In this document: positions 27,846 to 62,350 of the stretch, piece after piece
Layout of the letters: each line of letters opens with the position of its first letter
Numbering within the stretch: the first letter of the stretch is position 1
NCBI GenBank assembly: GCA_002839315.1
Contig: PGXV01000005.1
Coordinates: 62,001-126,000 of the forward strand
DNA: 64,000 bases
Source of the DNA: Spirochaetae bacterium HGW-Spirochaetae-3
GTDB taxonomy: Bacteria; Spirochaetota; Spirochaetia; Treponematales; UBA12059
Direction: 5' to 3'
The notes under the pieces: generated by a model
The model's database searches: none
The model's input: the letters and a program-made list of their open reading frames with translations, nothing else
Told to the model about the DNA's origin: nothing
Translations under genes and position numbers: made by a program

Positions 27846-28790
27846 ATGCTTCTCGTCTTGGTAGTCTGCGCCTGCGGTATCGGTAGCCGATCCGCGACCG
27901 AATCGAAGCCGATAGTGCTGGGGTATTCCCAGCTCGGGGACGAGAGCACCTGGCGGACGCAGAACAGCCGTTCGATCATCGACGCCGCCGAAAAGGCCGG
28001 CGTCAAGATCATGTTCGACGACGCCATGCAGAAGCCCGAGAACCAGATAAAGGCTATACGCTCCTTCATCGCGTACAAGGTTGACGTCATCGCGTTTTCC
28101 CCGCTGGTGGAGACCGGCTGGGACACGGTGCTGCACGAGGCCAAGGCGGCCGGCATCCCCGTGATCATCGTCGACCGCATGATCGATACGGCGGACGAGA
28201 GCCTGTATGCCTGCGCGCTCGGCTCCGACTTCTATAAGGAAGGCCGCCGGGCCGGAGAGTTCCTCGTCAAGAAGTATCGGGGCTCCGGCCGCCCGGTCAG
28301 GATCGTGGAGATCGGCGGAACCATGGACTCTACTCCCGCCATCGGGCGGTACCAAGGATTCAGGGACGTCATCTCCTCCGATCCGAATTTCTCGGTGATC
28401 TTCAGCGATGACGGCGACTTCATGCTCAGCAAAGGCAAGGAGATAATGCGGCGGGTCCTGAGGCTCTACGGCCCGGGCGACCTGGACGTGCTCTACTCCC
28501 ATAACGACGACATGACCTTCGGCGCTATCGAGGTCATGCAGGAAGCCGGGATCGAGCCAGGCAAGGATGTCGTCATCATATCGGTGGACGCGACTCAGCG
28601 GATCGTCGATTATCTCAAGGACGGCGCCGTGAATTGCGTCATCGAGTGCAATCCCAACAGCGGCAGCCAGTTGATGGAGATCGCCCGGGATGTCGCTTCC
28701 GGCGTAGGAGTGCCGAAACGTATCTATATCGAGGAGACGGTCTTTGACGAGTACGCCGACCTCGATGCTATCGCGCCGAGAGGGTATTGA
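27846..28790 (+). CDS. YtfQ-like sugar-binding lipoprotein of a sensory cassette (5' end frameshifted)
   Basis: A 314-residue type I binding protein. It matches the canonical YtfQ pattern closely: ENQIKAIRSFIAYKVDVIAF, VETGWDTVLHEAKAAGIPV, VDRMIDTADESLY, YSHNDDMTFGAIEVMQEAG, and a C-terminus ending RGY. The in-frame ATG 27846 would start inside the hydrophobic core of the signal peptide (MLLVLVVCACG). The natural start is 27817, one base out of frame because of a T10 run. There is no transporter gene downstream, only a YesM kinase and a YesN regulator, so it probably senses the sugar carried by the divergent YtfQRT-YjfF importer. Confidence 0.85.
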   Translation: MLLVLVVCACGIGSRSATESKPIVLGYSQLGDESTWRTQNSRSIIDAAEKAGVKIMFDDAMQKPENQIKAIRSFIAYKVDVIAFSPLVETGWDTVLHEAKAAGIPVIIVDRMIDTADESLYACALGSDFYKEGRRAGEFLVKKYRGSGRPVRIVEIGGTMDSTPAIGRYQGFRDVISSDPNFSVIFSDDGDFMLSKGKEIMRRVLRLYGPGDLDVLYSHNDDMTFGAIEVMQEAGIEPGKDVVIISVDATQRIVDYLKDGAVNCVIECNPNSGSQLMEIARDVASGVGVPKRIYIEETVFDEYADLDAIAPRGY

Positions 28791-28800
28791 CTGTAGCCGC

Positions 28801-30303
28801 ATGGCCGGGGAGACGTTTACGATCGACGGGAAAGCTACTGGAAGGCCGCGTACCAACAGCATCCGCAAGACGCTGCGGGTGACGAACATAGTCATCATCC
28901 TGGCTACCCTCGTGCCTTTCCTGCTAAGTACGCTGTACTACAATATCACCCTGAACCAGTACGAGCGGATCATCGAGAACGTATACAACGCCAACAGCCT
29001 GTCGCGCCTTCTACAGGATGAAATATATATAACCATCTGGGATGTGGTGTCCGGCAAGACCAGGTTCGAGGACAATACCCAATACGCGCTCATGGACAGG
29101 ATCAAGAGGCGCCTCGACGGGCTGGAGAACAACGCCAACAGCGAGGGCGATAGCTACCTGATACGGGTGGCGCGCAACACGCTGGCTACGATAGAGAAGT
29201 ACGTGGATAGGATCGGCGGGAATATCGCGGACGGCCGGCCAGTACAGGACAACGAGAAGATCCTCGGAGAGATCAGCTCGGTCGGCGAGCTGCTATACGA
29301 TGTGATCCAGAAATTCGTGGCGGCCGAGACGGAGATCGCCCATCTCCAGAATACCAGGATACAGCGCTCCCTGGACCTGATGACCTTTTTCCAGACGGCG
29401 TTCTTCGCGTCGATACTCGCGTTCCTCTTCCGGAACTACAGGCAATTGAACCGTAGCATCAGCGACCCTATCTACCGCCTGAAGACCATGGCCTCAAAGA
29501 TCGCCCAGGGCGACCTGTCCATCCGCGTCGAAAAGCCCGAGATCAGCGAGCTCGACGAACTTACCGACAGCCTCAATATCATGGCCGAGAAGCTGGGCGA
29601 GTTGCTCGAGCAGAATATCCAGAAGCAACAGAACCTGAAGAAGGCCGAGATGAAGGCGCTACAGGCTCAGATCGCGCCTCACTTCATGTACAATACCCTC
29701 GATACCATACTCTCCCTAGCGGAGGACGGGCAGAATGAGGACGTGGTGACCACGACCCTGGCGTTATCCAATTTCTTCCGCCTCTCCTTGAACAAGGGCC
29801 GCGACTGGGTCTCGGTGGCGGAGGAGAAGGCCCACGTGGAGAGCTACCTCGCCATACAGAAGATGAGATACGGCGCCATACTCGAATACGAGGTCGATTT
29901 CGCCGAGGACGCCCTGAAGGAGCCCATGCTCAAGATCCTGCTGCAGCCCCTGGTCGAGAACGCTATCTACCACGGCATCAAGATGACCCGGCGCTGCGGC
30001 CTCATAAAGTTGAGCTGCGAGTCGCAGGGCGGCGTCCTCGTCTTCAAGGTGGAGGACAACGGCCTGGGAATGGACCGGGCGGAACTGGAACGGCTACGTA
30101 TGAACCTGTCCCATTTCGACGTGTCCAACCCCGAGATGGGGTTCGGGCTGTACAACGTATATAAGCGCATCGAGCTCTACTACGAGATCGAGGACGGGCT
30201 GACGGTGGAAAGCGAATACAATAAGGGGTGCACCGTCACCCTGCGGCTACCTACGATCAGGCCGCCTGTCCCGGTACAGGTATCGCCGCTGGAAGGAGGG
30301 TGA
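28801..30303 (+). CDS. YesM-type sensor histidine kinase (second cassette)
   Basis: A kinase of about 500 residues. It has a membrane segment at about 30-48, a helical periplasmic region to about 190, a second membrane segment at about 195-211, HAMP at about 212-265, a coiled region, then the His_kinase motif IAPHFMYNTL with H294, and a HATPase domain (PLVENAIYHGI, DNGLGM, GFGLYNV). The start is ATG 28801, 10 bp after the previous stop. An upstream in-frame TTG at 28744 with GAGGAG before it is the alternative. Its partners are the adjacent binding protein and regulator. Confidence 0.92.
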   Translation: MAGETFTIDGKATGRPRTNSIRKTLRVTNIVIILATLVPFLLSTLYYNITLNQYERIIENVYNANSLSRLLQDEIYITIWDVVSGKTRFEDNTQYALMDRIKRRLDGLENNANSEGDSYLIRVARNTLATIEKYVDRIGGNIADGRPVQDNEKILGEISSVGELLYDVIQKFVAAETEIAHLQNTRIQRSLDLMTFFQTAFFASILAFLFRNYRQLNRSISDPIYRLKTMASKIAQGDLSIRVEKPEISELDELTDSLNIMAEKLGELLEQNIQKQQNLKKAEMKALQAQIAPHFMYNTLDTILSLAEDGQNEDVVTTTLALSNFFRLSLNKGRDWVSVAEEKAHVESYLAIQKMRYGAILEYEVDFAEDALKEPMLKILLQPLVENAIYHGIKMTRRCGLIKLSCESQGGVLVFKVEDNGLGMDRAELERLRMNLSHFDVSNPEMGFGLYNVYKRIELYYEIEDGLTVESEYNKGCTVTLRLPTIRPPVPVQVSPLEGG

Positions 30304-30306
30304 CGC

Positions 30307-31926
30307 GTGCACACGGTATTCCTGGTAGACGATGAGCCCCTGATCCGGCAGAACATGCGCAACGCCATCGAGAGGTACGCCGAGTCGTATACCTGCATCG
30401 GGGAGGCGGGGGACGGGGAGCTGGCGCTCTCCATCATACAGGACCTCAAGCCAGATATCCTGATCACGGACATCAAGATGCCGTTCATGGACGGACTGAT
30501 GCTGGCGCGACACGCAAGGACCGCCAGCCCCTGGCTCCGCATCATCATAGTGAGCGGCCACGACGAATTCGAGCTGGCCCGCCAGGCGATCTGCGTCGGC
30601 GTCGACAGCTACCTCCTGAAGCCCGTGGCGGCCAAGGACCTCGTCGACGCCCTGCGCAAAGCCAGCGAGCAGATAACGGAGCATAAGAGGCTAAGCGTCT
30701 CCTTCCTGAAGGACGCGTCCGGCGAGGAAGCCGTCAAGAACGCCTTGGTAAGCACCCTGCTGCAGCAGCTCTGCGGAGGGGAGATCACCGCCGACGAATC
30801 GCTCCGCCGGGCGGACGAGCTCGGCATCGACATCCTGAGCAAGAAGTACGTGGTGCTGGTCTCCCTTTTCGAGGGGAAGGGCGGATACCCGAATCGCCAG
30901 GCGCTCGCCTCCAAGGTGAAATTCATGCTGGTGGACGATCCCGACGTTCTGTATTTCCTGAGCGGCGTGGACAATGTGGTTCTCATCATCAAGGGGAACT
31001 CCGACATCGACGTCACCGAAAAGGCCTACCATACCGCTCGGACGCTCAAGCACGAGGTAGAGGACGACGGCACCACGCTGCTCACGGTGAGCATCAGCAG
31101 CGTGACCTCGCGCATCAGCGGCATCCGCGACGCCTTCCACGAGGCGAGCATCCTGCTTAAGACGTTCGGCCAGAGCAACCTCGGCCGAATATTCTGCGCC
31201 GGGGATATCGGCCGTATCGATAGCCCCGTCACCGCATCCGCCGACTGCTTCTTCAACGTCAACATAGAGAACAAGCTCAAGTTCGCGATCGCGGAGGACG
31301 TACCGGCGATAGTCGCGGAGTTTACCAAGAACCTCGACGTCGACGAGATGCAGGGCGTACTGTACCGATACTATATCCTCATGGATCTCCACAATACAGC
31401 CATCCGCATTATCCGCAATTTCAACCCCGACATCGACCCCGCCGAGATCGCCGGGCATTTCGTGGACCTAAGGCGGGTATTCCAGTCCGCCATATCCGCG
31501 GAGGAATTCATGGATCTCGCTACCCGGATATGCCTGGAGACCATCGAGCTACGGAACTCCGGTAGCAGCAGCCCCCACGTGAAGCTGGTGCGCCGCGCCT
31601 GCGAGTACATCCAGGAGAACTACAACAGCCCCGATATCTCCCTCTGTACCGTCGCCTCCCACGTGTCCCTGAGCCCCGCCCATTTCAGCACGATCTTCTC
31701 CCAGGAGATGTCGGTGACGTTCATCGACTATCTCACCGACGTCCGGATGGAGAAGGTCAAGGAGTTGCTCGCGTTCACCGATGAAAAGGTCGTCAATATC
31801 GCGTTTAGCGTGGGGTATAACGAGCCGAACTACCTGAGCTATCTGTTCAAGAAGAGGGAAGGGCTTACCCTTAAGGAGTATAGGCTGCAGAAGAGGCCCC
31901 AGGGGGGCAAGATCATGGCCTCGTAG
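30307..31926 (+). CDS. YesN-type response regulator with AraC domain (second cassette)
   Basis: A 539-residue protein with a receiver domain (D8, D9, phospho-acceptor D55 in LITDIKMPFMDG, lysine in LLKPV), a middle region of about 130-420, and a C-terminal AraC DNA-binding domain (YIQENYNSPDISLCTVA, then NYLSYLFKKREGLTLKEYR). It starts with GTG at 30307 after GGAAGGAGGG. It is the cognate regulator of the kinase 3 bp upstream. The divergent sugar importer operon is the obvious target. Confidence 0.92.
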   Translation: MHTVFLVDDEPLIRQNMRNAIERYAESYTCIGEAGDGELALSIIQDLKPDILITDIKMPFMDGLMLARHARTASPWLRIIIVSGHDEFELARQAICVGVDSYLLKPVAAKDLVDALRKASEQITEHKRLSVSFLKDASGEEAVKNALVSTLLQQLCGGEITADESLRRADELGIDILSKKYVVLVSLFEGKGGYPNRQALASKVKFMLVDDPDVLYFLSGVDNVVLIIKGNSDIDVTEKAYHTARTLKHEVEDDGTTLLTVSISSVTSRISGIRDAFHEASILLKTFGQSNLGRIFCAGDIGRIDSPVTASADCFFNVNIENKLKFAIAEDVPAIVAEFTKNLDVDEMQGVLYRYYILMDLHNTAIRIIRNFNPDIDPAEIAGHFVDLRRVFQSAISAEEFMDLATRICLETIELRNSGSSSPHVKLVRRACEYIQENYNSPDISLCTVASHVSLSPAHFSTIFSQEMSVTFIDYLTDVRMEKVKELLAFTDEKVVNIAFSVGYNEPNYLSYLFKKREGLTLKEYRLQKRPQGGKIMAS

Positions 31927-31950: not shown

Positions 31951-33099
31951 TTACTTGAGCAGCTCCATCCCCTCGAACTTCCTGTATAGCGACAGTTCCT
32001 CGAATACCTGGGGGGCGACGCCGACGCCGTCGACGATCGCCGACGACAGGATCTTGCCGAGCCCCGGGCCGAGCATATAGCCCTGCCCGCACATACCGAC
32101 GGCGAGCATCAGGTTCGAGTACTCCTCGGTATAGCCGACGATCGGCAGGCCGTCCGGGGTCATCGGATACATGCCGCGCCAGGTACGGCGGACCTTGAGG
32201 TTGCGCAGGCGGGGATACAGCTCGACCATGCGGCGAGACACGAGCGGCAGGAAGCTCGACGTGGAATCGGTGTCCGTGCCCCATATCTGCGGCTTGGGCG
32301 TTATGCAGAAGACGATCTGCCCGGTAACGGTCTGGTAGAAGTAGTAGTTGCCGGATTCGTCGTCGGGGCGTATGTCGACGAGCATCGGCTCGAGGAAGCG
32401 CTCGCATGGCTCGGTGACGCCGGCCTCGTGGCAATCGGGATGCACCGGCAGCTCCAGGTCGACGAGACCGCCGATGTCGGCGGCGAAGGCGCCCGCGGCG
32501 TTGACCACGGTGCCGGCCTCGTATTCGTCCTTGTCGGTCCGTACCGACGCGACGCGGCCGCCTTCGGTCCGTATAGCCGTCACCGTCTCGCCGAATCGGA
32601 ACTCGGCCCCGGCGCCGCGCGCTAGCCGGTGGAACGCGGTGCTCGTCATCAGCGGCGACGCGTATCCGTCGCCGGGGCTGAAGGTGCCGCCGCGCAGGCC
32701 GTCGGTCCTGATGCCGGGACAGAGCTCCGATACGCGGGCGGGGCCTATCCAGTCTATGTCGAGCCCGGCGTCCTTCTGGATAGTGAGGAGGTCGCGGAAC
32801 GCCTTCTCGCGCTGCTCGTCGTACGCGACGAAGAGATATCCGCCGGAGCGCCACTCGACGTCGATGCCGCGCTCGGCCTCGAGGCCCGCGACGATGCGTA
32901 TCGACTCCTGGCACAATCGTATCTTCGCCGGGTCGGAGTGGGTCGCGCGTAGGCCGCCTATCGCGGCGCGGTTCTGGCCCCGTCCCCACGACGCGTTCTT
33001 CTCGATGACTATCGTCGACAATCCGCGCTCGGCGCAGTAGAAGGCGAGGGGCACGCCGACCGAGCCTGCCCCGATTATCAGTACGTCGCAGGTCTTCAT
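31951..33099 (-). CDS. FAD-dependent oxidoreductase (HcnC/DadA-type dehydrogenase beta subunit)
   Basis: A 382-residue DAO-family flavoprotein. The N-terminal FAD fold is DVLIIGAGSVGVPLAFYCAERG. Further in are WGRGQNRAAIGGLRATHSD, VNAAGAFAADIGGL and TPDGLPIVGYTEEYSNLMLAVGMCGQGYMLGPG. Such proteins form the catalytic subunit of amino-acid or amine dehydrogenases (proline, glycine/HCN, sarcosine, opine types). It overlaps the larger electron-transfer subunit by 4 bp. The Liv-type importer upstream suggests that the substrate is an amino acid or derivative that is taken up and oxidised. Confidence 0.86.
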   Translation of the reverse strand: MKTCDVLIIGAGSVGVPLAFYCAERGLSTIVIEKNASWGRGQNRAAIGGLRATHSDPAKIRLCQESIRIVAGLEAERGIDVEWRSGGYLFVAYDEQREKAFRDLLTIQKDAGLDIDWIGPARVSELCPGIRTDGLRGGTFSPGDGYASPLMTSTAFHRLARGAGAEFRFGETVTAIRTEGGRVASVRTDKDEYEAGTVVNAAGAFAADIGGLVDLELPVHPDCHEAGVTEPCERFLEPMLVDIRPDDESGNYYFYQTVTGQIVFCITPKPQIWGTDTDSTSSFLPLVSRRMVELYPRLRNLKVRRTWRGMYPMTPDGLPIVGYTEEYSNLMLAVGMCGQGYMLGPGLGKILSSAIVDGVGVAPQVFEELSLYRKFEGMELLK

Positions 33100-35198
33100 T
33101 CCCGTCCTCCGTTGTCGTCGCGCTCGGTCGTCGTCACGCGCCCGGCCAGTTCGCCCATCGGCGCTTCCAGGGTCAGCGGCCGTACCGTGCCGCTCGTTGT
33201 ATCCGCCGGATCGACGCCCGCCTTGCGGAATACCTGCGGTAGCAGCGTCGAGCAGGTCTTCGAGCCGCAGGCGCCCATGCCCACGCGTATCGTCTTGAGC
33301 TGGTTGACGTCCCGTATCTCGTTTTCCTTTATGAAATCGACGATATCGCCGACGCTTACCCGCTCGCAGCGGCATACGATAGCGTCGTCGGGCAGGTATT
33401 CGTAGCGCGGCTCGGGCAGCGCTCGCGTCACCGCCTCGTCCTGCACGCGAACGCCGATGATGCGCGCGGCGCTCTCGGTCCGGGCCCGTAGCGTCAGCAC
33501 CCAGGTGCGATACTTCTTGTAGTACTTCTTGTCGACGAGCTCGGCGTCTTCGACGAAGCGGCCGTCCTGGTCGAGCGCGGGCAGACGGACGCCGAGGTCG
33601 TAGCCGCTCGCGTCGAACTCGAAGGGGATGCGGACCTCGGCGAAGTCCGCGTCGACGCGCCGTACCAGCGAAACCGCGAGCCCGGGGCACGCCGCGACGC
33701 AGGCGGAGCAGCCCTTGCAGTTCGATCCCTCGAAGTACGGCAGGTCCAGGAGGGAACCCTTGCGCGGCCGTAGCTTTATCGAGGCGGTGGGGCAGACGGT
33801 CGTGCACGGGTTGCACGGTATCTCCTCGGTGCAGAAGAATACCGGCCGCCACGAGTCGCCCGGCTCGACCCGGTCGCGGGCTATAACGTCGCCCGGCTTG
33901 CTCTTGAGCACCTCGCGCTTGTCCAGCCATTCCCTGTCTATCTCGACCTTGCGGCCCATCATCCTGGCCAGCGACAGCGCCGCTATGCGGCCTCCGAACA
34001 TGGCGCTCGACGCCTCGGCTATCTCCTCGGCGTCGCCGGCCTTGACGGCGGTGAATCCGAACGCGATCGCCTGGCGGTACAGCTCGTCGCAGGGCGATAG
34101 GCCCGTCGCGACGAGCACGGTGTCCACCGCGAAGGTACGGGCGGTAGCGAGGATCGGCCTGTAGCCCTCGTCGACGTCGGCTATCGTCACGCGCTCGACC
34201 TTGCCGTCGCCTTCCACAGACACGACGGTCGTCGACAGGTAGACGGGCACGCCCATACGCACGATCTTGTCGGCGTGCACCTTGTAGCCGTTTATCTTCG
34301 GCAGGATCTCGCATATGCCGGCGACCTCGATGCCGGCCTGCAACGCGTGATAGGAGCCGATCAGGCCGACGTTGCCGGAGCCGATGACGAAGACCTTGTC
34401 GGCCGCCTTGACGAGGTCCCGGTTGACGAGGGTCTGGAACGCGCCTGCCCCGTAGACGCCGGGCAGGTCGTTGCCGGGGAACAGGATCGAACGCTCGCGG
34501 GCGCCGGCCGCGACGATGACGGCCTGGAACTCGACCAGCATATAGCGCCTATAGTCGATGTAGAGTCCCGCCTTGCGGTCCTTGAATATCGCTACCACCG
34601 GCGAATTGGCGAGCACGCGCACGTTCGGGAGCGCGCGTACCTTCTTCTCGAGCAACGCGGCTATCTCGTAGCCTCGGGTGCCGGCGTAGCAGTCTTCCTC
34701 GGAACCGAAGAATTTGTGCGTCTGCAGCACAAGCTTGCCGCCGAGCGTCTCCTTGTCGTCGGCGATCACCACGTCGATCCCGCGCTCAGCCAGTTCCACT
34801 GCCGCCGCGAGCCCGGACGGGCCTCCGCCGATGACGAGCACCTCCGTCTTCAGCGTCTCCACGCGGGCCTCGGGCGCCGGGTCGTCGTCCGTCAGCAACG
34901 CGGGAACGCCGTGCACGGTGCGGACGTCCATGCCCGCCTTGAGCCCGGTGACGCAGGCCTTGCGGACGACGCCGTCGACGAGCACGTTGCACTGGGAGCA
35001 TTGGCCGTTGGCGCAGAAGATGCCCTGGGGCGCGCCGCCCTTGCGGTGCTCCGAGAATCGCTTGACGCCGTTCGCGAACAGGGCGGAACTCAGGGCCTCG
35101 CCTTCGTATCCGGTCATGGCCTCGCCGTCGAAGGCGAAGCGCGCCTCGGTCCTCGGGCCTCGCGCGTCTAGTACGGGATGGCTGGTGATTCGGTTCAT
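33096..35198 (-). CDS. Iron-sulphur/flavin oxidoreductase, alpha subunit of an amine or amino-acid dehydrogenase
   Basis: A 700-residue multidomain protein. A Fer2_4 [2Fe-2S] domain (CANGQCSQCNVLVDG, about residues 60-85) is followed by an FAD/NAD(P) pyridine-nucleotide-disulphide fold (VIGGGPSGLAAAVELAERG; FVIGSGNVGLIGSYHA). Then come two ferredoxin-type clusters (CTEEIPCNPCTTVCP and CKGCSACVAACP) and a BFD-like [2Fe-2S] domain (CRCERV to GACGSKTC). It therefore combines the HcnA-, HcnB- and ferredoxin-like parts in one chain. I take ATG 35198, which has GGAGA upstream and fits the domain edge. An 18-bp palindrome sits in its promoter. Confidence 0.88.
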   Translation of the reverse strand: MNRITSHPVLDARGPRTEARFAFDGEAMTGYEGEALSSALFANGVKRFSEHRKGGAPQGIFCANGQCSQCNVLVDGVVRKACVTGLKAGMDVRTVHGVPALLTDDDPAPEARVETLKTEVLVIGGGPSGLAAAVELAERGIDVVIADDKETLGGKLVLQTHKFFGSEEDCYAGTRGYEIAALLEKKVRALPNVRVLANSPVVAIFKDRKAGLYIDYRRYMLVEFQAVIVAAGARERSILFPGNDLPGVYGAGAFQTLVNRDLVKAADKVFVIGSGNVGLIGSYHALQAGIEVAGICEILPKINGYKVHADKIVRMGVPVYLSTTVVSVEGDGKVERVTIADVDEGYRPILATARTFAVDTVLVATGLSPCDELYRQAIAFGFTAVKAGDAEEIAEASSAMFGGRIAALSLARMMGRKVEIDREWLDKREVLKSKPGDVIARDRVEPGDSWRPVFFCTEEIPCNPCTTVCPTASIKLRPRKGSLLDLPYFEGSNCKGCSACVAACPGLAVSLVRRVDADFAEVRIPFEFDASGYDLGVRLPALDQDGRFVEDAELVDKKYYKKYRTWVLTLRARTESAARIIGVRVQDEAVTRALPEPRYEYLPDDAIVCRCERVSVGDIVDFIKENEIRDVNQLKTIRVGMGACGSKTCSTLLPQVFRKAGVDPADTTSGTVRPLTLEAPMGELAGRVTTTERDDNGGRE

Positions 35199-35246
35199 GG
35201 TGTTGTCTCCGATGCGTCCTAATGGAAACATGGCGCGTTTGAACTG

Positions 35247-35275
35247 TCAATACTGAAATTTCAGTATGTGTACAA
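35247..35275 (-). promoter_or_regulatory. Promoter with embedded perfect palindromic operator for the dehydrogenase genes
   Basis: On the minus strand TTGTAC (35270-35275), a 17-bp spacer and TATTGA (35247-35252). The spacer and the edge of the -10 box are occupied by the perfect 18-bp palindrome ATACTGAAATTTCAGTAT (35250-35267). A repressor bound there would exclude RNA polymerase. The start codon is 49 nt downstream of the -10. Confidence 0.65.
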
Positions 35276-35338
35276 AGATATCTTAAAGAGAAACAGCGAT
35301 CCCGCCATTGAACCCGCCCCGCCGCGGCAAGCCCGGCG

Positions 35339-36049
35339 CTATACTCCCAGGTACGCCTTACGGACCATCTCGTCTTGCCTCAGGTTCTCGGCGGTATCGG
35401 ACAGCACTATGTTGCCGGTCTGGAGGACGTAGCCGCGGTGCGCCACCGAGAGCGCCATCAGCGCGTTCTGCTCTATAAGCAGTATGGTCGTGCCACGGGC
35501 GTTCAGCTCCTTGATGATATCGAATATCTGGTCGACGAGCACGGGAGCCAGGCCCATCGACGGCTCGTCCATCAGCAGTATCTTGGGGTCGGACATCAAG
35601 CCGCGGGCGGTGGCCAGCATCTGCTGCTCGCCTCCGGACAGGGTCCCGCCTTTCTGGTCGATGCGTTCCCTGAGCCGCGGGAATAGGCCGAACGCATACT
35701 CCAAGCGCTTCTTGATATCCGCGTGGTCGCGGACGAGGTAGGCGCCCATCTCGAGGTTTTCAAGTACCGTCAGCCGCGGGAAGATGCCTCGGCCCTCCGG
35801 TACGAGGTCGATGCCTTCTCTGTGCACCAGGTGAGCCGGCATGCTCGATATATTTTTACCGTCGAACAGGATGCGTCCCTTCCGGCACCGCAGGAGCCCG
35901 GAAATGGACTTCAGAGTCGTCGTCTTACCAGCGCCGTTAGCACCGATAAGCGTGACTATCTCGCCTTGCTCGACCCGTAGCGAGACGCCCTTGAGGGCGT
36001 GAATGGCGCCGTAGTAGGTATGTATGTCTTCGAGCTCCAGTAGGCTCAT
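35339..36049 (-). CDS. livF: Branched-chain/polar amino-acid ABC transporter, ATPase LivF
   Basis: A 236-residue ABC ATPase with Walker A GANGAGKTT, signature LSGGEQQM and Walker B ILLMDEPSMGLAP. The C-terminal GNIVLSDTAENLRQDEMVRKAYLGV is typical of LivF. It is the last gene of the livKHMGF cluster, 10 bp after livG. It pairs with LivG to drive import through LivH/LivM. Confidence 0.94.
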   Translation of the reverse strand: MSLLELEDIHTYYGAIHALKGVSLRVEQGEIVTLIGANGAGKTTTLKSISGLLRCRKGRILFDGKNISSMPAHLVHREGIDLVPEGRGIFPRLTVLENLEMGAYLVRDHADIKKRLEYAFGLFPRLRERIDQKGGTLSGGEQQMLATARGLMSDPKILLMDEPSMGLAPVLVDQIFDIIKELNARGTTILLIEQNALMALSVAHRGYVLQTGNIVLSDTAENLRQDEMVRKAYLGV

Positions 36050-36059
36050 CGCTTCCCCC

Positions 36060-36854
36060 TCATGCGCTCAGCCCCGACGCGGCGCCGCGACCCAGGTACG
36101 CTTCTATCACTTTCGGATTCGCGGCGATGTCCTTGGGCTCTCCCTCGGCGATCTTCTCGCCATAGTCCATCACCGTGATCCTCTCCGATACCTTCATCAC
36201 GACGCGCATGTCGTGCTCGATGAGCAGTATCGCTATCCCCAGCTCGTCGCGGAGGCGCCGGAACAGGATGAGCGCGTCCTCGCTCTCGTGCGGGTTCATG
36301 CCGGCCGTCGGCTCGTCGAGGAGAAGCAGCTCCGGTTCGACTGCGAGCGCCCTCGCTATCTCCACGCGGCGCTGAGCGCCGTACGGTAGGTTGCACGCCA
36401 GCTCGTTTCCCAGTCCGTGGACGCCGACGTATTCCATGAGCTCCTCGGCCTTGATCTCCGCGGCGCGCTCCTCGTCCCGGAATCGCTTAAGCCGGAGGAG
36501 TATATCCAGCGGCGATTGCCTCAGCCTCGTGTACCCTCCGACCATGATATTCTCCACGACCGTCATGCTGCTGAACAGCCGTATGTTCTGGAAAGTCCTC
36601 GCGATGCGATGCGCCGTAATCGCGTCCGCTGACATCCGCCCTATATGCTTGCCCTTGAAGGTTATGCTGCCCTCGTCCGCGCGGTATATGCCTGATATCG
36701 TATTGAAGAAGGTCGTCTTGCCGGCGCCGTTCGGTCCGATTATGCTGTAGATCTTGCCCCGGTCGATGGTAAAGTCCATCTTGTTGACGGCGATCAGGCC
36801 GCCGAAGCGCTTGACCACGCCCTCGGTGACGAGGAAAGGCTCGTTATCGGTCAT
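36060..36854 (-). CDS. livG: Branched-chain/polar amino-acid ABC transporter, ATPase LivG
   Basis: A 264-residue ABC ATPase with Walker A GPNGAGKTT. It has a LivG-type insertion after it (HIGRMSADAITAHRIARTFQNIRLF), the signature region LPYGAQRRVEIARAL and Walker B LLLLDEPTAGMNPHE. It overlaps livM by 11 bp. The C-terminal IAANPKVIEAYLG block is typical of the family. Confidence 0.94.
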   Translation of the reverse strand: MTDNEPFLVTEGVVKRFGGLIAVNKMDFTIDRGKIYSIIGPNGAGKTTFFNTISGIYRADEGSITFKGKHIGRMSADAITAHRIARTFQNIRLFSSMTVVENIMVGGYTRLRQSPLDILLRLKRFRDEERAAEIKAEELMEYVGVHGLGNELACNLPYGAQRRVEIARALAVEPELLLLDEPTAGMNPHESEDALILFRRLRDELGIAILLIEHDMRVVMKVSERITVMDYGEKIAEGEPKDIAANPKVIEAYLGRGAASGLSA

Positions 36855-38262
36855 CGTCGGCCTCCTCTGGCGCGTCGCCGTTAGCGTCGCCGTTCGTTTC
36901 GCCGTCGCTCACGGACGCGTCCGGCGTGCCCTTGAGCTCGCGTATCCTCCGTGACGCCGGTATCAATCCCGCCGGCCTGTATATCATCATCAGCACGAGG
37001 ATGAGACCGAACAGGAGCCGCTGGTACTTGGCCGGGTCGAGCTGGGTCGACAGGTCTTTCCACGCGAAGTTCAGTATGGGTATCACCGCGTCGCTCTGCC
37101 TGAGCTGGGTCAGGTAGAGCGAGAAGCTCTGCAGCACCTGGAGGTTCAGGATGATCACCACGGCGGCGCCGATTATGACGCCTGGGATAGAGCCTATGCC
37201 GCCGAGTATCACCATGGTCAGCACGCCGATCGACTGCATGAAGTTGAAGGAGTCCGGGCTGACGAAGGTACGGCTCGCGGCGAATATTACGCCCATGCCG
37301 CCGGCGAACGACGCGCCGACCGCGAACGCGGCGAGCTTCAGCTTGTTGGCCGGTATGCCCATCGCCGTAGCCGCCAGCTCGTCCTCGCGGATGGCCGTCC
37401 ACGCCCTGCCTATCTTGGAATCGTCGAGTCGATGGGTCACCACGATCGCGGCTAATACGACGATCAGCGCGATGAAATAGAAGACGATGTTGTAGAACTG
37501 GCTAGGCGTCACCCGGTTGCCTACCAGAGGCCCTACGACCGCGTTGAAGGCGTCGACGACCCCCTGCGGCAACGTGGGCTTCTGTATCGGCGTGATGCCC
37601 TGCGGCCCGTTCGTCAGGTTGAGCGGCTTGTCCAGGTTGTTGACGAGCTGCCGTACCACCTCTCCGAAGCCTAGCGTCACGATCGCCAGGTAGTCGCCCC
37701 GCACGCGCAGCACCGGGAGGCCGAGGAGGAGCCCGACGAAGGCCGCGACGATTATCCCGAGCAAGACGAATACGTAGAACCATTCCGGCGCCAGCAGAAA
37801 AGGCGTGTCGAGCGGAGCGGTGCCCGGTATCTCATGGAGCAGGAACGCCTGCTGCGAGCCGAAGAAGCCCCACAGGTAGGCGCCCGCGGCGTAGAACGCG
37901 ACGTAGCCCAGGTTGAGGATGCCGGAGAAGCCGACGACTATGTTCAGGCCGAGGGACAGCGCCGCGAATACGGCTATCTGGAATATTACCTCCAGGTAGA
38001 AGATGTTCCGCGCTCCCAGGATGGGGACGAGCACGACCGCTACGAAGACGGCGAGCGCTAGCTTCGCCGTCTTGTTCATCCTGAGGAAGTATATCATAGC
38101 CGTAGCGCCGGCGAAAACCAGGAACGCCAGTATCGACCGTGGGCTCAGATAGACGAGGGCTGTCCCTACGACGAGGAGCGAGATCGAGACGACATACGGA
38201 TTGCGTCCGGTATTGAGGTGGTTAGCCAGCCTGGCCAGCGATTCGCGCATTGAATTCTTCAT
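36844..38262 (-). CDS. livM: Branched-chain/polar amino-acid ABC transporter, permease LivM
   Basis: A 472-residue membrane protein with about ten or more hydrophobic segments. The LivM blocks are GLNIVVGFSGILNLGYVAFYAAGAY, RVRGDYLAIVTLGFGEVVR, GRAWTAIREDELAATAMGI and GGIGSIPGVIIGA. The C-terminal tail is acidic and rich in Asn/Asp (GETNGDANGDAPEEADDD), which is longer than usual. It pairs with LivH. Confidence 0.93.
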   Translation of the reverse strand: MKNSMRESLARLANHLNTGRNPYVVSISLLVVGTALVYLSPRSILAFLVFAGATAMIYFLRMNKTAKLALAVFVAVVLVPILGARNIFYLEVIFQIAVFAALSLGLNIVVGFSGILNLGYVAFYAAGAYLWGFFGSQQAFLLHEIPGTAPLDTPFLLAPEWFYVFVLLGIIVAAFVGLLLGLPVLRVRGDYLAIVTLGFGEVVRQLVNNLDKPLNLTNGPQGITPIQKPTLPQGVVDAFNAVVGPLVGNRVTPSQFYNIVFYFIALIVVLAAIVVTHRLDDSKIGRAWTAIREDELAATAMGIPANKLKLAAFAVGASFAGGMGVIFAASRTFVSPDSFNFMQSIGVLTMVILGGIGSIPGVIIGAAVVIILNLQVLQSFSLYLTQLRQSDAVIPILNFAWKDLSTQLDPAKYQRLLFGLILVLMMIYRPAGLIPASRRIRELKGTPDASVSDGETNGDANGDAPEEADDDR

Positions 38263-38271
38263 CGCTAGCTC

Positions 38272-39447
38272 CTATGCCTTCTGGGAGACCTGCTCGCCGA
38301 GCAGGCCCGAGGGGCGGAATATCAGGATGAGTATCAGGATGGCGAACGCGATGATGTCCTTGTACTCCGCGCCCATCGCGCCCATCGTGAACGTCGTCAG
38401 GTACGCGCCGGCGAAGCTCTCGAGCATTCCCAGCACTATGCCGCCGAGCAACGCCCCGGTGAGGTTGCCTATGCCGCCGAGGACGGCCGCCGTGAAGGCC
38501 TTCATTCCCGGGAAGAAGCCTATGAACGGGTCGATGCGCGTGAACTTGAGCGCGTAGAGGACGCCCGCCGCGCCGCCCAGCGCTCCGCCGAGCAGGAACG
38601 TGAACGAGATGATCCCGTTGACGTAGACCCCCATCAGGGACGCGCTGCTCCTGTCCTGCGCTACGGCCCGGATCGCCTTGCCTACGCGCGTAGCGTTGAC
38701 GATATAGTTGAGGCCCGCCAGCATCAGCACGGCGGCCACTATTACCACGATCGATTTGACCTGTATATCCACGTACACGGTTCCCATCTTCATCTCGAAC
38801 GCGAACAGGGAAACGCGGTCGTCGAAGTTGCCGAAGGTCGGGAATATCCTGTGGAACTGCCCGCTGGTCAGGCTCTCGACGAGGCGTATCAGGTCCTGGA
38901 GAACGAAAGAGACGCCTATGGCCGATATCAGCGGGACGATGCGAGGCGCTCCGCGGAGCGGTCGGTACGCCGTGCGCTCCACGATGACGGCCGTCGCGCC
39001 CGACGCCATCATGCCGGCGAGGACGGCCATCATCAGCAGCATATACGCGAATAAGGGCCCCGCGCCAGCCAGGATCCCTAGCCGTTCCATGAACAGCAGG
39101 AACTCGACGCCGGCGAATGCGCCGATAGCGAATATCTCGCTGTGGGCGAAGTTGATGAACTCGAGCACGCCGTAGACCATGGTATACCCGAGCGCGATAG
39201 CGGCGTAGACGAAACCGAGCGTAACGCCGTCGATGAGCACCTGGGGCAGGATCGAGACGGTATACGGGAGTATGCCGACGTCCATGGACTCGAGGAGGAG
39301 CCTGTCCGCCGCCGAACCCTTGAAGACGAGCGCTAGCAGTACCATGAACGCCGAGAATACGGCCCCGGCGCCTACGACGAAGACCACCATCCTGCCGATA
39401 GGCTTGACGATTTCGCGCACGGATACCGGCAGCTGGGCAATTCGCAT
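38272..39447 (-). CDS. livH: Branched-chain/polar amino-acid ABC transporter, permease LivH
   Basis: A 391-residue permease with the blocks DGVTLGFVYAAIALGYTMVYGV, INFAHSEIFAIGAF, GKAIRAVAQDRSSASLMG and LGGIGNLTGALLGGIVLGM. The start is ATG 39447, which has a perfect GGGAGGA site. The longer open frame upstream is chance. Compared with classical LivH (about 300 residues) it has an N-terminal extension with an extra hydrophobic segment. Confidence 0.92.
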   Translation of the reverse strand: MRIAQLPVSVREIVKPIGRMVVFVVGAGAVFSAFMVLLALVFKGSAADRLLLESMDVGILPYTVSILPQVLIDGVTLGFVYAAIALGYTMVYGVLEFINFAHSEIFAIGAFAGVEFLLFMERLGILAGAGPLFAYMLLMMAVLAGMMASGATAVIVERTAYRPLRGAPRIVPLISAIGVSFVLQDLIRLVESLTSGQFHRIFPTFGNFDDRVSLFAFEMKMGTVYVDIQVKSIVVIVAAVLMLAGLNYIVNATRVGKAIRAVAQDRSSASLMGVYVNGIISFTFLLGGALGGAAGVLYALKFTRIDPFIGFFPGMKAFTAAVLGGIGNLTGALLGGIVLGMLESFAGAYLTTFTMGAMGAEYKDIIAFAILILILIFRPSGLLGEQVSQKA

Positions 39448-39465
39448 AGATCCTCCCGTGACCCG

Positions 39466-39497
39466 CCCCCGCCCGCAGGCAAGCCTTCGAGCGGGGG
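39466..39497 (-). promoter_or_regulatory. Intercistronic stem-loop between livK and livH
   Basis: CCCCCGC pairs with GCGGGGG across an 18-nt loop, 21 bp after the livK stop, with no T-run. It probably protects the livK message or lowers read-through to the permease genes. Confidence 0.55.
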
Positions 39498-39518
39498 TGA
39501 GTCGGTGCGATGGTATGA

Positions 39519-40706
39519 TTATTTCGGGGGCTCGATCTCCAGGGTCTGGGCGATCTTGTTGTTCGACCACTGCAGCGGATCTGCGGACGTGACCTGTATT
39601 ATGAAGTACTTGGCCTTCAGCAGGTCGCCTTTACTATTGAATGAAATGGTTCCCGTTATGCCTTTATAATCCGTTATAGCACGAACGGCTTTGGCTATAG
39701 CCGCCCTCGTGGGCGCCGCGCCGCCGGACGACTTGGCCGCGGCCTCTATGGCCAGCAGGGCCAGGGCCGTGCTGTCATAGGCCTGCGCCGCGAAGGGTTG
39801 GGGCTCGGAACCGAAGCGGGCCTTGAAGTCCGCTATGAACTTGGCCGTACCCGGGTACGCGGACGCGGGGCCCGAGACCGTCGAGTAATACGTCCCCTTG
39901 CCGTCGAGCAGGACCTTGCCGCCTATCTTGGTCGCGTCGCTGGAATCGAAGCCGTCGTCCGACAGGAACATGCCCTTGTAGCCTTTTTGCCTGGCCTGCT
40001 TGAAGAGCACCGCGGCCTGGTCGTACATGCCGCCGAAATAGATTACGTCGGGCCTCGACGCCAGGATCGGCGTGAGTATCGAGTCGAAATTAGCCTTCTC
40101 CTCGGTACCAGCGAAGCCTCGAACCTTGATGCCGAGCTTCTCGGACTCGCGCTTGAAGTATTCGGCGATGCCCTGGCCGTAGGCCGTCTTGTCATGGATG
40201 ATATAGGCGCTCTTCATGCCCATGGACATGGCGAACTGGGCTCCGACGGCTCCCTGCACATCGTCGCGACCGCAGATGCGGCTTATCTCGAGGTAATTGC
40301 GTTCCGTGACCTTGGGATTGGTGTTCGCGGGCGATACATTGGCGAGACCCGCGGAATGATACTCCTCGGAAGCGGGGATCTGTACGCCAGAGTTATAATG
40401 GCCCACGATGACGAGGACCGCCGGATCGGCGACTATGTTCTTGGCGTTGGCCACGCCGGTATCGGGGTTGCCTTGGTCGTCGAATGGGGCAAGCTCGATC
40501 TTGAATCCAAGCTTGGTTAACGATCCGGATAGTTGCTCTATCGCGAGCTGGGCGCCGTTCTTTATGTCCGTGCCCACCGCCGACATGCCGCCTGATAGCG
40601 GGCTCTGCGTCGCGATCTTGATGACCTTGGCCTGGGCGCCTGTCGCCGACACGGCGAAGGCGAGCATCGCGGTCGCCAGAATGACGCTACATAACCTTTT
40701 TCCCAT
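39519..40706 (-). CDS. livK: Amino-acid ABC transporter substrate-binding protein LivK-like
   Basis: A 395-residue periplasmic binding protein of the Peripla_BP_6 type. The signal peptide is cleaved near TGAQA. The Leu/Ile/Val-binding fold shows IATQSPLSGGMSAVGTDIKNGAQLAIEQL, VIVGHYNSGVQIPASEEYHSAG, YIIHDKTAYGQGIAEYF and PDVIYFGGMYDQAAVLFKQAR. It has a good GGAGG site 7 nt upstream. It heads the livKHMGF operon. The following dehydrogenase genes suggest that the ligand is oxidised for energy. Confidence 0.92.
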   Translation of the reverse strand: MGKRLCSVILATAMLAFAVSATGAQAKVIKIATQSPLSGGMSAVGTDIKNGAQLAIEQLSGSLTKLGFKIELAPFDDQGNPDTGVANAKNIVADPAVLVIVGHYNSGVQIPASEEYHSAGLANVSPANTNPKVTERNYLEISRICGRDDVQGAVGAQFAMSMGMKSAYIIHDKTAYGQGIAEYFKRESEKLGIKVRGFAGTEEKANFDSILTPILASRPDVIYFGGMYDQAAVLFKQARQKGYKGMFLSDDGFDSSDATKIGGKVLLDGKGTYYSTVSGPASAYPGTAKFIADFKARFGSEPQPFAAQAYDSTALALLAIEAAAKSSGGAAPTRAAIAKAVRAITDYKGITGTISFNSKGDLLKAKYFIIQVTSADPLQWSNNKIAQTLEIEPPK

Positions 40707-40721
40707 ACGCGTAACCTCCGA

Positions 40722-40738
40722 ATTCTTTCTGAAAGAAT
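40722..40738. promoter_or_regulatory. Inverted repeat immediately upstream of livK
   Basis: ATTCTTTC-T-GAAAGAAT is a perfect 8-bp inverted repeat with a single central base, 16-32 nt before the livK start. In RNA it could form only a tight hairpin, so a DNA operator is more likely. It differs from the palindrome at 35250, although both contain CTGAAA. Confidence 0.4.
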
Positions 40739-41125
40739 GTCTTTAGCGCCGCTATTCCCGCAGCGCCTGGTTGGTAGGTGGAATGGCCTAGCATGTCCGG
40801 CCGCCTCGCCCGGTCCCGAGGGGACGGAGAACGGGCGAAGGCTGATTGGGGGGCGCACCGCGAGGGTGCCTTGGTTATCGTGGTGGTATAGTACGTATCC
40901 TGTTGCCTCCTCCAGACCCTTGGCGGGGTCGAATCGTTTTACGCGATTAAAGGGGCTCGGAACGTCTGGCGTTGAGCGAGGATGACAAAGGCTACGTTTG
41001 CCGATTAAGGCAATGCTAGTTCCGCTTTTTTACCTAGTCAAGCTTTATTTATTTAGTGCTCCGCTCCGTCGAGATATGGCGCGGCGTCAGTCGTTCGGTT
41101 ACAGTATTCCTAAAGGAGCCCGGCG
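40739..41125. other. Divergent intergenic region, no gene recognised
   Basis: A 387-bp stretch between livK (minus) and the CHASE kinase gene (plus). It becomes AT-rich near 41000-41060, where plus-strand promoter elements are likely. TATAC-like boxes occur near 40888. I could not assign a convincing -35/-10 pair on either strand and saw no coding signal. Confidence 0.5.
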
Positions 41126-43081
41126 GTGCGACGTCCATACTCTCGCTTGCGCGCTTTCCTCTTGCCTTCGGCCGCCGCGATCTTCGGGCTCGTATGTACG
41201 GCGGCCGTGTACCGGGCTATCTCCTCGGATCAGAGGGCCCGAATAGCGGACCAGTTCCGCTATGACGCCTCGCAACGCGTGGAGCTCGTCGCCGGCGCGT
41301 TCACGGGGCATACGGACGCGTTGGAATCGGTCGGGCGTTTCTTCGAGGACTCGATAGAGATTACCAGCGATGAATACAACCGCTTCGCTTCCGCTTGGGT
41401 GTCGCCGAGGCTGTTCTCCGCCATCGCGTGGTGCGTACCGAAAGACGGCTCCGACTGGATGGGCGCCGCCGGCGGGCTGGAACCGTACTATTTCGTACCG
41501 ACCCTCGAGCCCTTCCCGGCGCTCGTATCGATGCTCGATTCTCCCGAGGTCCGTTCCGCGGTAGCGGTCGCGGCGACCAGCGGTCGCGCGGCCGCTTCGG
41601 CGATGGTTTTCCTGCCATGGGACCGGCCGCAGCCCGCGATCGCGCTGTGCAGGCCGGTTTTCTCCGCATCCGACGAATCCGGCGTGAGGCGGTTCGGGGT
41701 GCTCGTGGGATTCGTCGCCATTCCTATCGTGGTCCAGGGCGCGATCCTGGCCGAGGAAGCCACGGGCCTGCCGATGACGATACGCGACGTCTCTTCAGGC
41801 TCGAACGCGCCGTACTACTCGTACTCCCCGCGCATCGGAGTCCCGGTAGAGCCCGGCAACGCCTTGGACTGGCTCGTCTTTTCCAAGGAAACGCGGTTCG
41901 CAGACAGGTCGTGGCGCATCGAGGTCAGGGCTTCGACGAAGTACGTAGCCGCGATGGACAGGGAAGCGGACTACTTCGCGATCGCCGGAGCCATCGCGTC
42001 GCTCGGCCTCGCGGCGCTGACGCTGGCGCTCGTCAGGGGCAGGGAAAGCGCCGAGGCGTTGGCCGAGGCGTCGAGCGCGGAGTTTGAGCGCTTCTTCACG
42101 CTGAGTCTCGACCTGTTCGCGATCGCCGGGATCGACGGCGTATTCCGGCGCCTCAACCCGGAATGGAGCGCCGTGCTCGGGCGACCCCTAAGCGAGCTCG
42201 AGGGCACCGGCTTCCTCGATTTCGTCCATCCCGAAGACGTGGAGGCGACGCGTAGCGCCATGTCGAGACTGGCGGCGGGAGAGGAAGTCGTCGGCTTCGT
42301 CAACCGCTATCGGGCCGCTGACGGTAGTTTCCGTAACATCGAATGGCGTTCCAGGATGGCTCCGGACGGGGATACGGTATTGGCCGCCGCTCGCGATATA
42401 ACCGACCGAATATCGATGGAGGACGCGTTGCGGCGATCCGTCGCCGAGAAGGAATCGCTGATCAAGGAAGTTCATCATCGCGTGAAGAACAACATGCAGG
42501 TCATTTCCAGCCTCCTGGACCTCGATGCCATGAATCGCGCGGAACCGCGGCTCGTCGAGGCGGCCAAGGAGGCGCAGGGCCGTATCAGGACGATGGCGAT
42601 GGTTCATGAGCAACTGTACCGGAGGGATTCACTATCCGAGATCGACTTGGGCGACTACCTGCGTGAACTGGCCGGTCGCGTCGTCGGCGAGTATTCGTCT
42701 CTGGGCGTCCGGCTGTCGATAGACGCCGACTCGATGTTCCTCGACCTGGATGCGGCCATTCCTTGCGGGCTCGCCGTTAACGAGCTGCTGACGAACGCTC
42801 TCAAGTATGCGTGCAAGGACTCGGGCTCGGCGGTGCGGATACTGGCTTGCGTGGCCGACGACGGAACGTACTCCATCCGCGTAGAGGACGACGGCCCGGG
42901 TATCTCCGCGGACGCGCTCGATCGATCGATCGCCGGCGAGACTCTGGGGCTTTCGCTCGTCTTCGGGCTCGCGGCGCAGCTGGGCGGCGAGTTGAGCGTC
43001 CTGCCCGGGCCGGGAGCCCGCTTCGAGTTGCGGTTCCCGTATCCCAGGCGGGCGACCGCCCCGTTCAGCCCTACGAGTTGA
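41126..43081 (+). CDS. CHASE-PAS sensor histidine kinase (HisKA_2 type)
   Basis: A 651-residue membrane kinase. It has a membrane segment at about 10-30, an extracytoplasmic CHASE domain at about 35-290 ([18 protein letters not shown] near its start), a second membrane segment at about 290-310, and a PAS fold at about 320-430 ([30 protein letters not shown]). Then comes HisKA_2 with the motif [20 protein letters not shown] and a HATPase domain ([17 protein letters not shown]). It starts with GTG at 41126 after AAAGGAG. No response regulator is adjacent, so it is an orphan in this window. CHASE domains sense small extracellular molecules. It overlaps udk by 11 bp tail to tail. Confidence 0.9.
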
Positions 43082-43685
43082 GTATCGTGTTTATGAAGGT
43101 GACGAGCACCTGCAGCGCGTTCTCGTTGGCGCCGCCTTCGGGGATGATGATGTCGGCGAAGCGCTTGGTCGGCTCGATGAACTGATAGTGGCCCGGCCTC
43201 ACGACGTTGAGGTACTGGTCGATTACCGAGTCCACCGTACGCCCGCGTTCCTTGATGTCCCTGCCCAGCCGCCTGATGAAGCGAATGTCGTCGGGCGTGT
43301 CCACGAATATCTTCAGGTCGATGAGGTCGCGAACCCTCTCGTTGGTGAATACCATGATGCCCTCGAAGATGACAAGCTTGCGCGGCGTCACCTTGATCGT
43401 CTCTTCCGCGCGGCGGTGATGTACGAAGTCGTAGGTCGGCATCTCCACGGGCTCCATGCGCTTCAGCGCCGACAGCTGGGTCCATAGGAGGTCGTTGTCG
43501 AACGCCTCGGGGTGATCGAAGTTGAAGGCGGTGATGTTCGAATTGGAGATATACTCCGCCGACTTGTAATAGTTGTCCTGGGGGATGAACACGAAGTCCG
43601 ATACCAGCTCGGAAATTTTGCGCACGATCGTCGTCTTGCCCGAGCCCGACCCGCCGCATATCCCGATGAGTTTTGCTTCTGCCAT
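43071..43685 (-). CDS. udk: Uridine kinase-like P-loop kinase
   Basis: A 204-residue protein with Walker [10 protein letters not shown] at residues 11-19 and the uridine kinase/phosphoribulokinase signatures [36 protein letters not shown] and VIFEGIMVF. It phosphorylates uridine or cytidine to the monophosphate in pyrimidine salvage. The start is ATG 43685. The longer open frame lacks similarity. It is a single-gene unit. Nearby genes also handle nucleosides, so the function fits the locality. Confidence 0.87.
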
Positions 43686-43773
43686 GACCGCGAGGATAGC
43701 ACGGTATGGTCGGCTTGGGAACGGGGAGCCAGACCGCGCCCGCTTCGTACGCGCTCGCCAGGGCATCCGCTTC

Positions 43774-62304: not shown

Positions 62305-62305
62305 T

Positions 62306-62343
62306 AAAAACAACAGCCACCCGTTAGGGTGGCTGTTGTTTTT
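62306..62343 (+). terminator. Terminator of tRNA-Cys
   Basis: AAAAACAACAGCCACCC pairs with GGGTGGCTGTTGTTTTT around the loop GTTA. It is a 17-bp perfect stem ending in T, directly after the tRNA. Confidence 0.95.
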
Positions 62344-62350
62344 ATAATAG

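Follow-up and report, generated by a model that had tools for sequence, protein, structure and literature searches.

Two minus-strand genes in the 64-kb window (the whole stretch of DNA analysed here) encode the alpha and beta subunits of a dehydrogenase, and an 18-bp palindrome, ATACTGAAATTTCAGTAT, lies in front of them (Table 1), its perfection in the initial annotation being borne out. The start of the alpha subunit is placed at an ATG with GGAGA upstream because most orthologues begin with MNRI or a close variant, and a gene start at 35231 was rejected on the same evidence. For the beta subunit, the closest match of solved structure is 1y56_B (E = 4.7e-48), part of what we take to be the L-proline dehydrogenase complex of P. 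horikoshii. That complex is described as belonging to the hetero-oligomeric proline/hydroxyproline dehydrogenase family (PMC4575208). In contrast to such known systems, among them D-hydroxyproline dehydrogenase, the alpha subunit of the window is longer and carries 4Fe-4S and BFD domains. No curated cut-off was reached by the dehydrogenase, with its family-level similarity suggesting a hetero-oligomeric (hydroxy)proline dehydrogenase that would feed the P5C pool.

The gene for the alpha subunit was found in 31 of 58 genomes searched, and its upstream regions were compared in 29, with G022 (lacking the N-terminus) and G052 (obtained without a locus) dropped from scoring. Comparison of orthologous upstream regions, as the initial annotation had proposed, revealed a TTGACA/extended -10 promoter and a 12-bp core, with TTGACA present in 27 promoters and TTGACG in two, followed after 17 or 18 bp by a -10 element that is usually preceded by TG. 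The palindrome had been placed exactly between a TTGTAC -35 and a TATTGA -10, however the real -35 adjoins it on the downstream side, so that the palindrome abuts this hexamer from upstream. Both annotated hexamers do exist, 17 bp apart, but each matches consensus at three of six positions and neither is conserved, which speaks against a promoter role. The -10 of the window likewise fits consensus at only three of six positions, which is why a promoter scan of the window missed the real dehydrogenase promoter.

Table 1. Coordinates of the dehydrogenase genes, their promoter elements and related sites (window positions unless a contig is named)
Feature	Position	Strand	Remark
Dehydrogenase beta subunit, DAO family	31951..33093	-	Best solved relative 1y56_B
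Dehydrogenase alpha subunit, 700 aa (2Fe-2S, FAD/NAD, 4Fe-4S, BFD domains)	33096..35198	-	Start corrected
-10 hexamer TTCCAT, extended TG element, 17-bp spacer	35222..35227	-	Orthologue comparison
-35 hexamer TTGACA, dehydrogenase promoter	35245..35250	-	Orthologue comparison; one base shared with palindrome
TATTGA, annotated -10	35247..35252	-	Overlaps real -35; judged not a -10
18-bp perfect palindrome ATACTGAAATTTCAGTAT	35250..35267	.	Exact match
Core operator CTGAAATTTCAG, 12 bp, proposed GntR/FCD regulator site	35253..35264	.	Matrix and conserved position
TTGTAC, annotated -35	35270..35275	-	Not conserved; judged not promoter
TTTCA-N15-TTTCA-NN-TTGACA	G001:C497:3375-3407 (L281)		Exact match
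TTTCA-N15-TTTCA-NN-TTGACA	G002:C16:1423-1455 (L280)		Exact match
TTTCA-N15-TTTCA-NN-TTGACA	G004:C25:34335-34367 (L282)		Exact match
TTTCA-N15-TTTCA-NN-TTGACA	G011:C304:6161-6193 (L283)		Exact match
TTTCA-N15-TTTCA-NN-TTGACA	G016:C44:380-412 (L279)		Exact match

The palindrome is the sole copy in the window even when up to three mismatches are allowed, and the genome-wide search that had been suggested showed its exact form to be unique in the source genome (G000; 3.88 Mb, 18 contigs), with one further site carrying three mismatches. Palindromy by itself is not significant, since a second-order Markov model predicts 0.77 perfect 18-bp palindromes per 64 kb, against two present in the window; the weight of the argument rests on comparative evidence. 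A repeat search around the palindrome returned nothing useful.

A conserved core and a candidate regulator

The conserved element at the dehydrogenase promoters is a 12-bp core of pattern CTGAWATWTCAG, with all 18 bp perfect only in G000 and G003, and one mismatch in G006. The palindrome very probably is a regulator-binding site, with the 12-bp core rather than the full 18 bp as the likely functional unit. Relatives carry CTGATATATCAG, CTGATATTTCAG, CTGAAATATCAG or CTGAAATTTCAG at this place, with small departures. Scored with a matrix built only from 20 gntR-promoter sites (threshold 10 bits), the window core reaches 13.8 bits of a maximum of 23.5 and is the top site of the window (runner-up 10.4), with two of its central bases departing from the gntR consensus. 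The core was found at 13 of the 29 scored dehydrogenase promoters, and in ten of these the best core ends 0–2 nt upstream of the -35, the window core being centred near -43. G015 and G020 have one core at the -35 and a second between the -35 and -10; that of G041 lies downstream of the -10.

The pattern drawn from the dehydrogenase promoters has four exact matches in the source genome, located before the window dehydrogenase, gntR-hypD, a ferredoxin-like/aldehyde:ferredoxin oxidoreductase (AOR) operon, and a prolidase-family gene. With one mismatch allowed there are 14 sites, equal to the 14 of a reversed-pattern control, and such sites were therefore not trusted alone; one of them precedes the P5C dehydrogenase (P5CDH) gene and is backed by relatives. 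Another (L066:1501-1512; G000:C18:292682-292693) lies 21 nt before a binding-protein gene, presumably DUF3798-like, with ABC transporter genes behind it. Relatives of this operon occur in 21 of 30 genomes. It could encode a transporter belonging to the regulon, but as an additional target (L066/L072) it was set aside as probable chance, the one-mismatch scan performing no better than its reversed control.

The initial annotation had noted no obvious cognate regulator in the cluster, and none with the site is encoded there, but a candidate lies on a different contig (G000:C11:450647-451381), with hypD next to it. The 245-aa protein scores 59.9 bits against Pfam GntR (cut-off 27) and 53.6 bits against Pfam FCD (cut-off 24.3), domains that place it in the FCD/FadR subfamily of the GntR family; every NCBIfam model falls below cut-off, and its best matches among plasmids are GntR proteins of ~36% identity given without function. 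One clear orthologue is present in 21 of the 58 genomes, the source genome included, and the core stands upstream of gntR in all of these except G009. The layout is typically TTGACA, 2–4 nt, CTGATATATCAG, and then the -10, so that the site falls within the core promoter, a position that would fit the predicted autorepression. The autoregulatory site may have room for more than one dimer, since a further half-site, AYATCAG (ATATCAG/ACATCAG), overlaps the -10 beyond the core in gntR of G003, G004, G006, and G007, and at L055:1513-1523.

The enzyme encoded after gntR is a glycyl-radical enzyme whose best solved relative is 6vxc (E = 1.6e-259). All 12 active-site, contact, and radical residues are identical in the alignment to 6vxc (residues other than the radical glycine as listed in PMC7077986), and this, together with the relationship to 6vxc, identifies the enzyme as HypD, trans-4-hydroxy-L-proline dehydratase. 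Against NCBIfam NF043068 HypD scores 1026.6 bits, under the curated cut-off of 1100, and the P5C dehydrogenase scores 751.8 bits against TIGR01236, over the cut-off of 613.6. P5C dehydrogenase converts P5C to glutamate, and prolidase frees proline from peptides. HypD is described as leading from hydroxyproline to P5C (PMC7077986), and the gene set would thus be coherent as (hydroxy)proline catabolism, with the dehydrogenase placed in it by its predicted substrate. In G041 the AOR and P5C dehydrogenase genes diverge from a single shared core (L094/L257, G041:C15), hinting at a role for AOR in proline breakdown.

Co-occurrence of core and regulator across relatives

Cores of at least 10 bits accompany the regulator across relatives. 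At the dehydrogenase promoter they were found in 12/19 GntR-positive genomes vs 1/10 GntR-negative genomes (those in which GntR was not found), at P5CDH in 6/7 vs 0/3, at the AOR operon in 11/15 vs 0/8, and at prolidase in 3/3, all GntR-positive. Fisher's exact test gives p values of 0.008 for the dehydrogenase, 0.03 for P5CDH, and 0.002 for AOR (the last computed without G017, as 0/7 GntR-negative), values that overstate independence as the genomes are related. Reversed sequences reach 10 bits in 1/29 dehydrogenase and 1/21 gntR upstream regions. The sole GntR-negative genome with a dehydrogenase core, G008, has a completeness of 67%, and its hypD gene begins right at the edge of a contig; removing G008 and G011, in both of which hypD lies at a contig edge, gives 12/19 vs 0/8.

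For AOR, 23 of 27 genomes were scored (22 loci and L246), with L232 lacking upstream sequence, L242, L243, and L245 dropped for want of the N-terminus, and L247 left out as a further fragment of G055, for which L241 was scored. No AOR sites appeared within the 350 nt scored first, because a ferredoxin-like gene stands before AOR, and the upstream regions were rescored over 1200 nt. The P5CDH search covered 30 genomes, and the P5CDH gene of G041 is thus not among the 6/7. The upstream region of hypD itself has no site above threshold by matrix scoring, as expected from its presumed co-transcription with gntR.

An exact search for CTGATATATCAG, covering 17 of the 20 GntR-positive relatives, returned 14 sites vs one for the reversed pattern. 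Eleven of these lie at gntR (five), P5CDH (two), the divergent AOR/P5CDH pair, AOR, prolidase, and the dehydrogenase (one each), with three lacking an assignment.

The core was lacking by matrix scoring at the dehydrogenase of seven of the 19 GntR-positive genomes (G001, G002, G004, G012, G025, G036, and G044), the first three of which belong to the genus of the window. Absence of the palindrome from close relatives sharing the gene order had been put forward as evidence against a regulatory site, and on this point the picture is mixed, with the site present at four and absent from three of the seven scorable promoters of the genus, including that of the window. More distant dehydrogenase loci mostly lack the core; several from rumen and unplaced lineages score 12–14, and L131, L133, and L151 score higher, but the counts cover only genomes of known GntR status.

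Proposed operator function and known HypR systems

Taken together, we consider the palindrome to be the operator of a HypR-like GntR/FCD regulator, probably a repressor, that would control the dehydrogenase alpha and beta genes (probability about 0.78, with binding, ligand, sign, and substrate predicted from sequence). The regulator, encoded beside hypD, would recognise sites resembling CTGATATATCAG and most likely represses its own gene, hypD, and the P5C dehydrogenase, prolidase, ferredoxin/AOR, and window dehydrogenase genes, letting go in the presence of a catabolite of proline or of hydroxyproline. A dimer bound at the window site, near -43 and abutting the -35, would hinder RNA polymerase. 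The dehydrogenase itself would convert proline to P5C or use a related imino acid as substrate.

This arrangement resembles the proteobacterial HypR regulon, in which a GntR-family regulator, autoregulated in most genomes, is described as governing the breakdown of hydroxyproline and proline and, in some taxa, proline dipeptidases and PutA as well (PMC5343134). The resemblance, an autoregulated GntR regulator with hydroxyproline/proline genes, lies here in site and gene content, and the regulator may be called HypR-like by analogy of regulon content rather than by comparison with a HypR sequence. Unlike the proteobacterial regulon as described in that source, the spirochaete set has HypD as its hydroxyproline enzyme, together with P5C dehydrogenase, the two-subunit dehydrogenase, and AOR, in a host that its named relatives place among uncultured Spirochaetota. 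HypR of S. meliloti is reported there to be a repressor with 4-hydroxyproline as inducer (PMC5343134); our literature search found no published source for its site. HypR of S. coelicolor, described as an FCD-type GntR protein that represses both hydroxyproline utilisation and its own gene, with a site in its own promoter covering the -10 (PMC6608401), is alike in regulator type, pathway, and presence of a site in its own promoter. Its reported motif, CTNTGC(A/C)ATGTCAC, is described as lacking clear symmetry and differs from the spirochaete core CTGATATATCAG, and a putative collagenase is listed among its targets where the spirochaetes have prolidase (PMC6608401).

The canonical site of the FadR (FCD) subfamily is given as a TKGT-N2-ACMA palindrome, HypR and UxuR being among the proteins listed with 2-nt spacing (PMC4494728). 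The spirochaete core is likewise an A/T-rich palindrome, in which TGAT-AT-ATCA fits this layout and spacing, however CTGATATATCAG has AT in place of GT in each half and so departs from the canonical TKGT/ACMA box. This does not exclude the regulator from the family, since the subfamily proteins BioR and NanR are also listed with other motifs (PMC4494728).

The regulon proposed here is of a known style (HypR-type), a new instance in a spirochaete, with one alternative promoter element unexplained; a search of titles and abstract openings found no published account of such a regulon in spirochaetes. It would make a palindrome without a partner part of a regulon that is open to testing, with a single regulator, five groups of targets, and a single predicted class of substrate, in spirochaetes for which environmental genomes are the main source of knowledge. 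Furthermore, it points to a function for a two-subunit dehydrogenase that is widespread but unassigned, would link AOR to proline breakdown, and would add a non-canonical FCD-family recognition motif with a predicted protein partner.

Sign of regulation, the direct repeat, and other readings

The annotated classic repressor site is very probably a regulator-binding site, whilst repression is the predicted sign and the position would also permit activation. At the window promoter, a repressor that occludes the -35 is the likely arrangement, favoured about three to one over activation, a spot just upstream of a -35 also being open to an activator. It is unlikely, though deserving of consideration, that the same GntR protein activates the dehydrogenase from near -43 whilst repressing its own gene. 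The position of the best core in ten of the 13 core-bearing promoters and the weak -10 of the window would suit this arrangement, and S. coelicolor HypR is reported as possibly activating one target, with the sign of FadR regulation said to be decided by position (PMC6608401). Set against this are the second site between the -35 and -10 in G015 and G020, the site past the -10 in G041, where activation is implausible, and the gntR and prolidase sites, which overlap or follow the core promoter, lying between the -35 and -10 at gntR and after the -10 at prolidase. The positions at gntR, at prolidase, and at the dehydrogenase of G015, G020, and G041 would all suit repression.

The unexplained element is a direct repeat, TTTCA-N15-TTTCA, of 20-bp period, ending 2 nt before TTGACA. 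Allowing one mismatch in 23 genomes, TTTCA-N15-TTTCA-NN-TTGACA has five matches, all exact and all at dehydrogenase promoters, with none for the reversed control in the same genomes. G001, G002, and G004 possess the GntR protein and lack the palindrome, having the direct repeat in its place, and in G011 and G016 the repeat occupies the same spot. The repeat looks like an activator site for a putative second regulator, and as it shares its proximal box with the right half of the window palindrome (TTTCAG), replacement of one regulator by another at a single promoter spot is conceivable. A switch of this kind within this spirochaete family, with the GntR palindrome of the hydroxyproline regulon in some genomes, a direct repeat read by an activator in others, and the TTTCA half-box bridging the two, is offered tentatively.

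Were the window palindrome itself read by the regulator of the direct repeat, with TTTCAG as its proximal box, the gntR-type sites elsewhere would be look-alikes. The confinement of the repeat to dehydrogenase promoters, the three repeat-bearing genomes with GntR but no palindrome, and the two divergent central bases of the window core would all fit, however the window lacks the distal box, the intermediates CTGATATTTCAG, CTGAAATATCAG, and CTGATATATCAG hold the same place in other genera, G005 has both element types, and core sites co-occur with GntR, making this reading improbable. That the palindrome arose by chance and is functionless agrees with the number of palindromes expected in the window and with preservation of the complete 18 bp in two genomes, yet is very hard to reconcile with a core at the same promoter in 13/29 orthologues and with the regulon pattern. 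A YesM/YesN-type two-component system (28744-31926), although its regulator genes are the closest to the dehydrogenase operon, was rejected as the cognate regulator and is scarcely credible in that role, as none of the 20 neighbourhoods compared from relatives has a YesN relative beside the dehydrogenase.

The dehydrogenase may plausibly be controlled apart from the upstream liv genes, as initially annotated, but relatives do not keep the liv-dehydrogenase gene order: liv relatives lie beside the dehydrogenase in only one of the 20 neighbourhoods, and are divergent there. In G001 and G002 a gene that at its C-terminus resembles the uridine-kinase-like gene at 43071-43766 of the window ends immediately before the dehydrogenase promoter. 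In the window, a histidine kinase gene and the liv operon (35199-41125) stand between the uridine-kinase-like gene and the dehydrogenase. Elsewhere in the window, at 62305-62344, lies a perfect inverted repeat whose 18-bp arms enclose a 4-nt loop, starting TAAAAACAACAGCCACCC, which is probably a two-way terminator.
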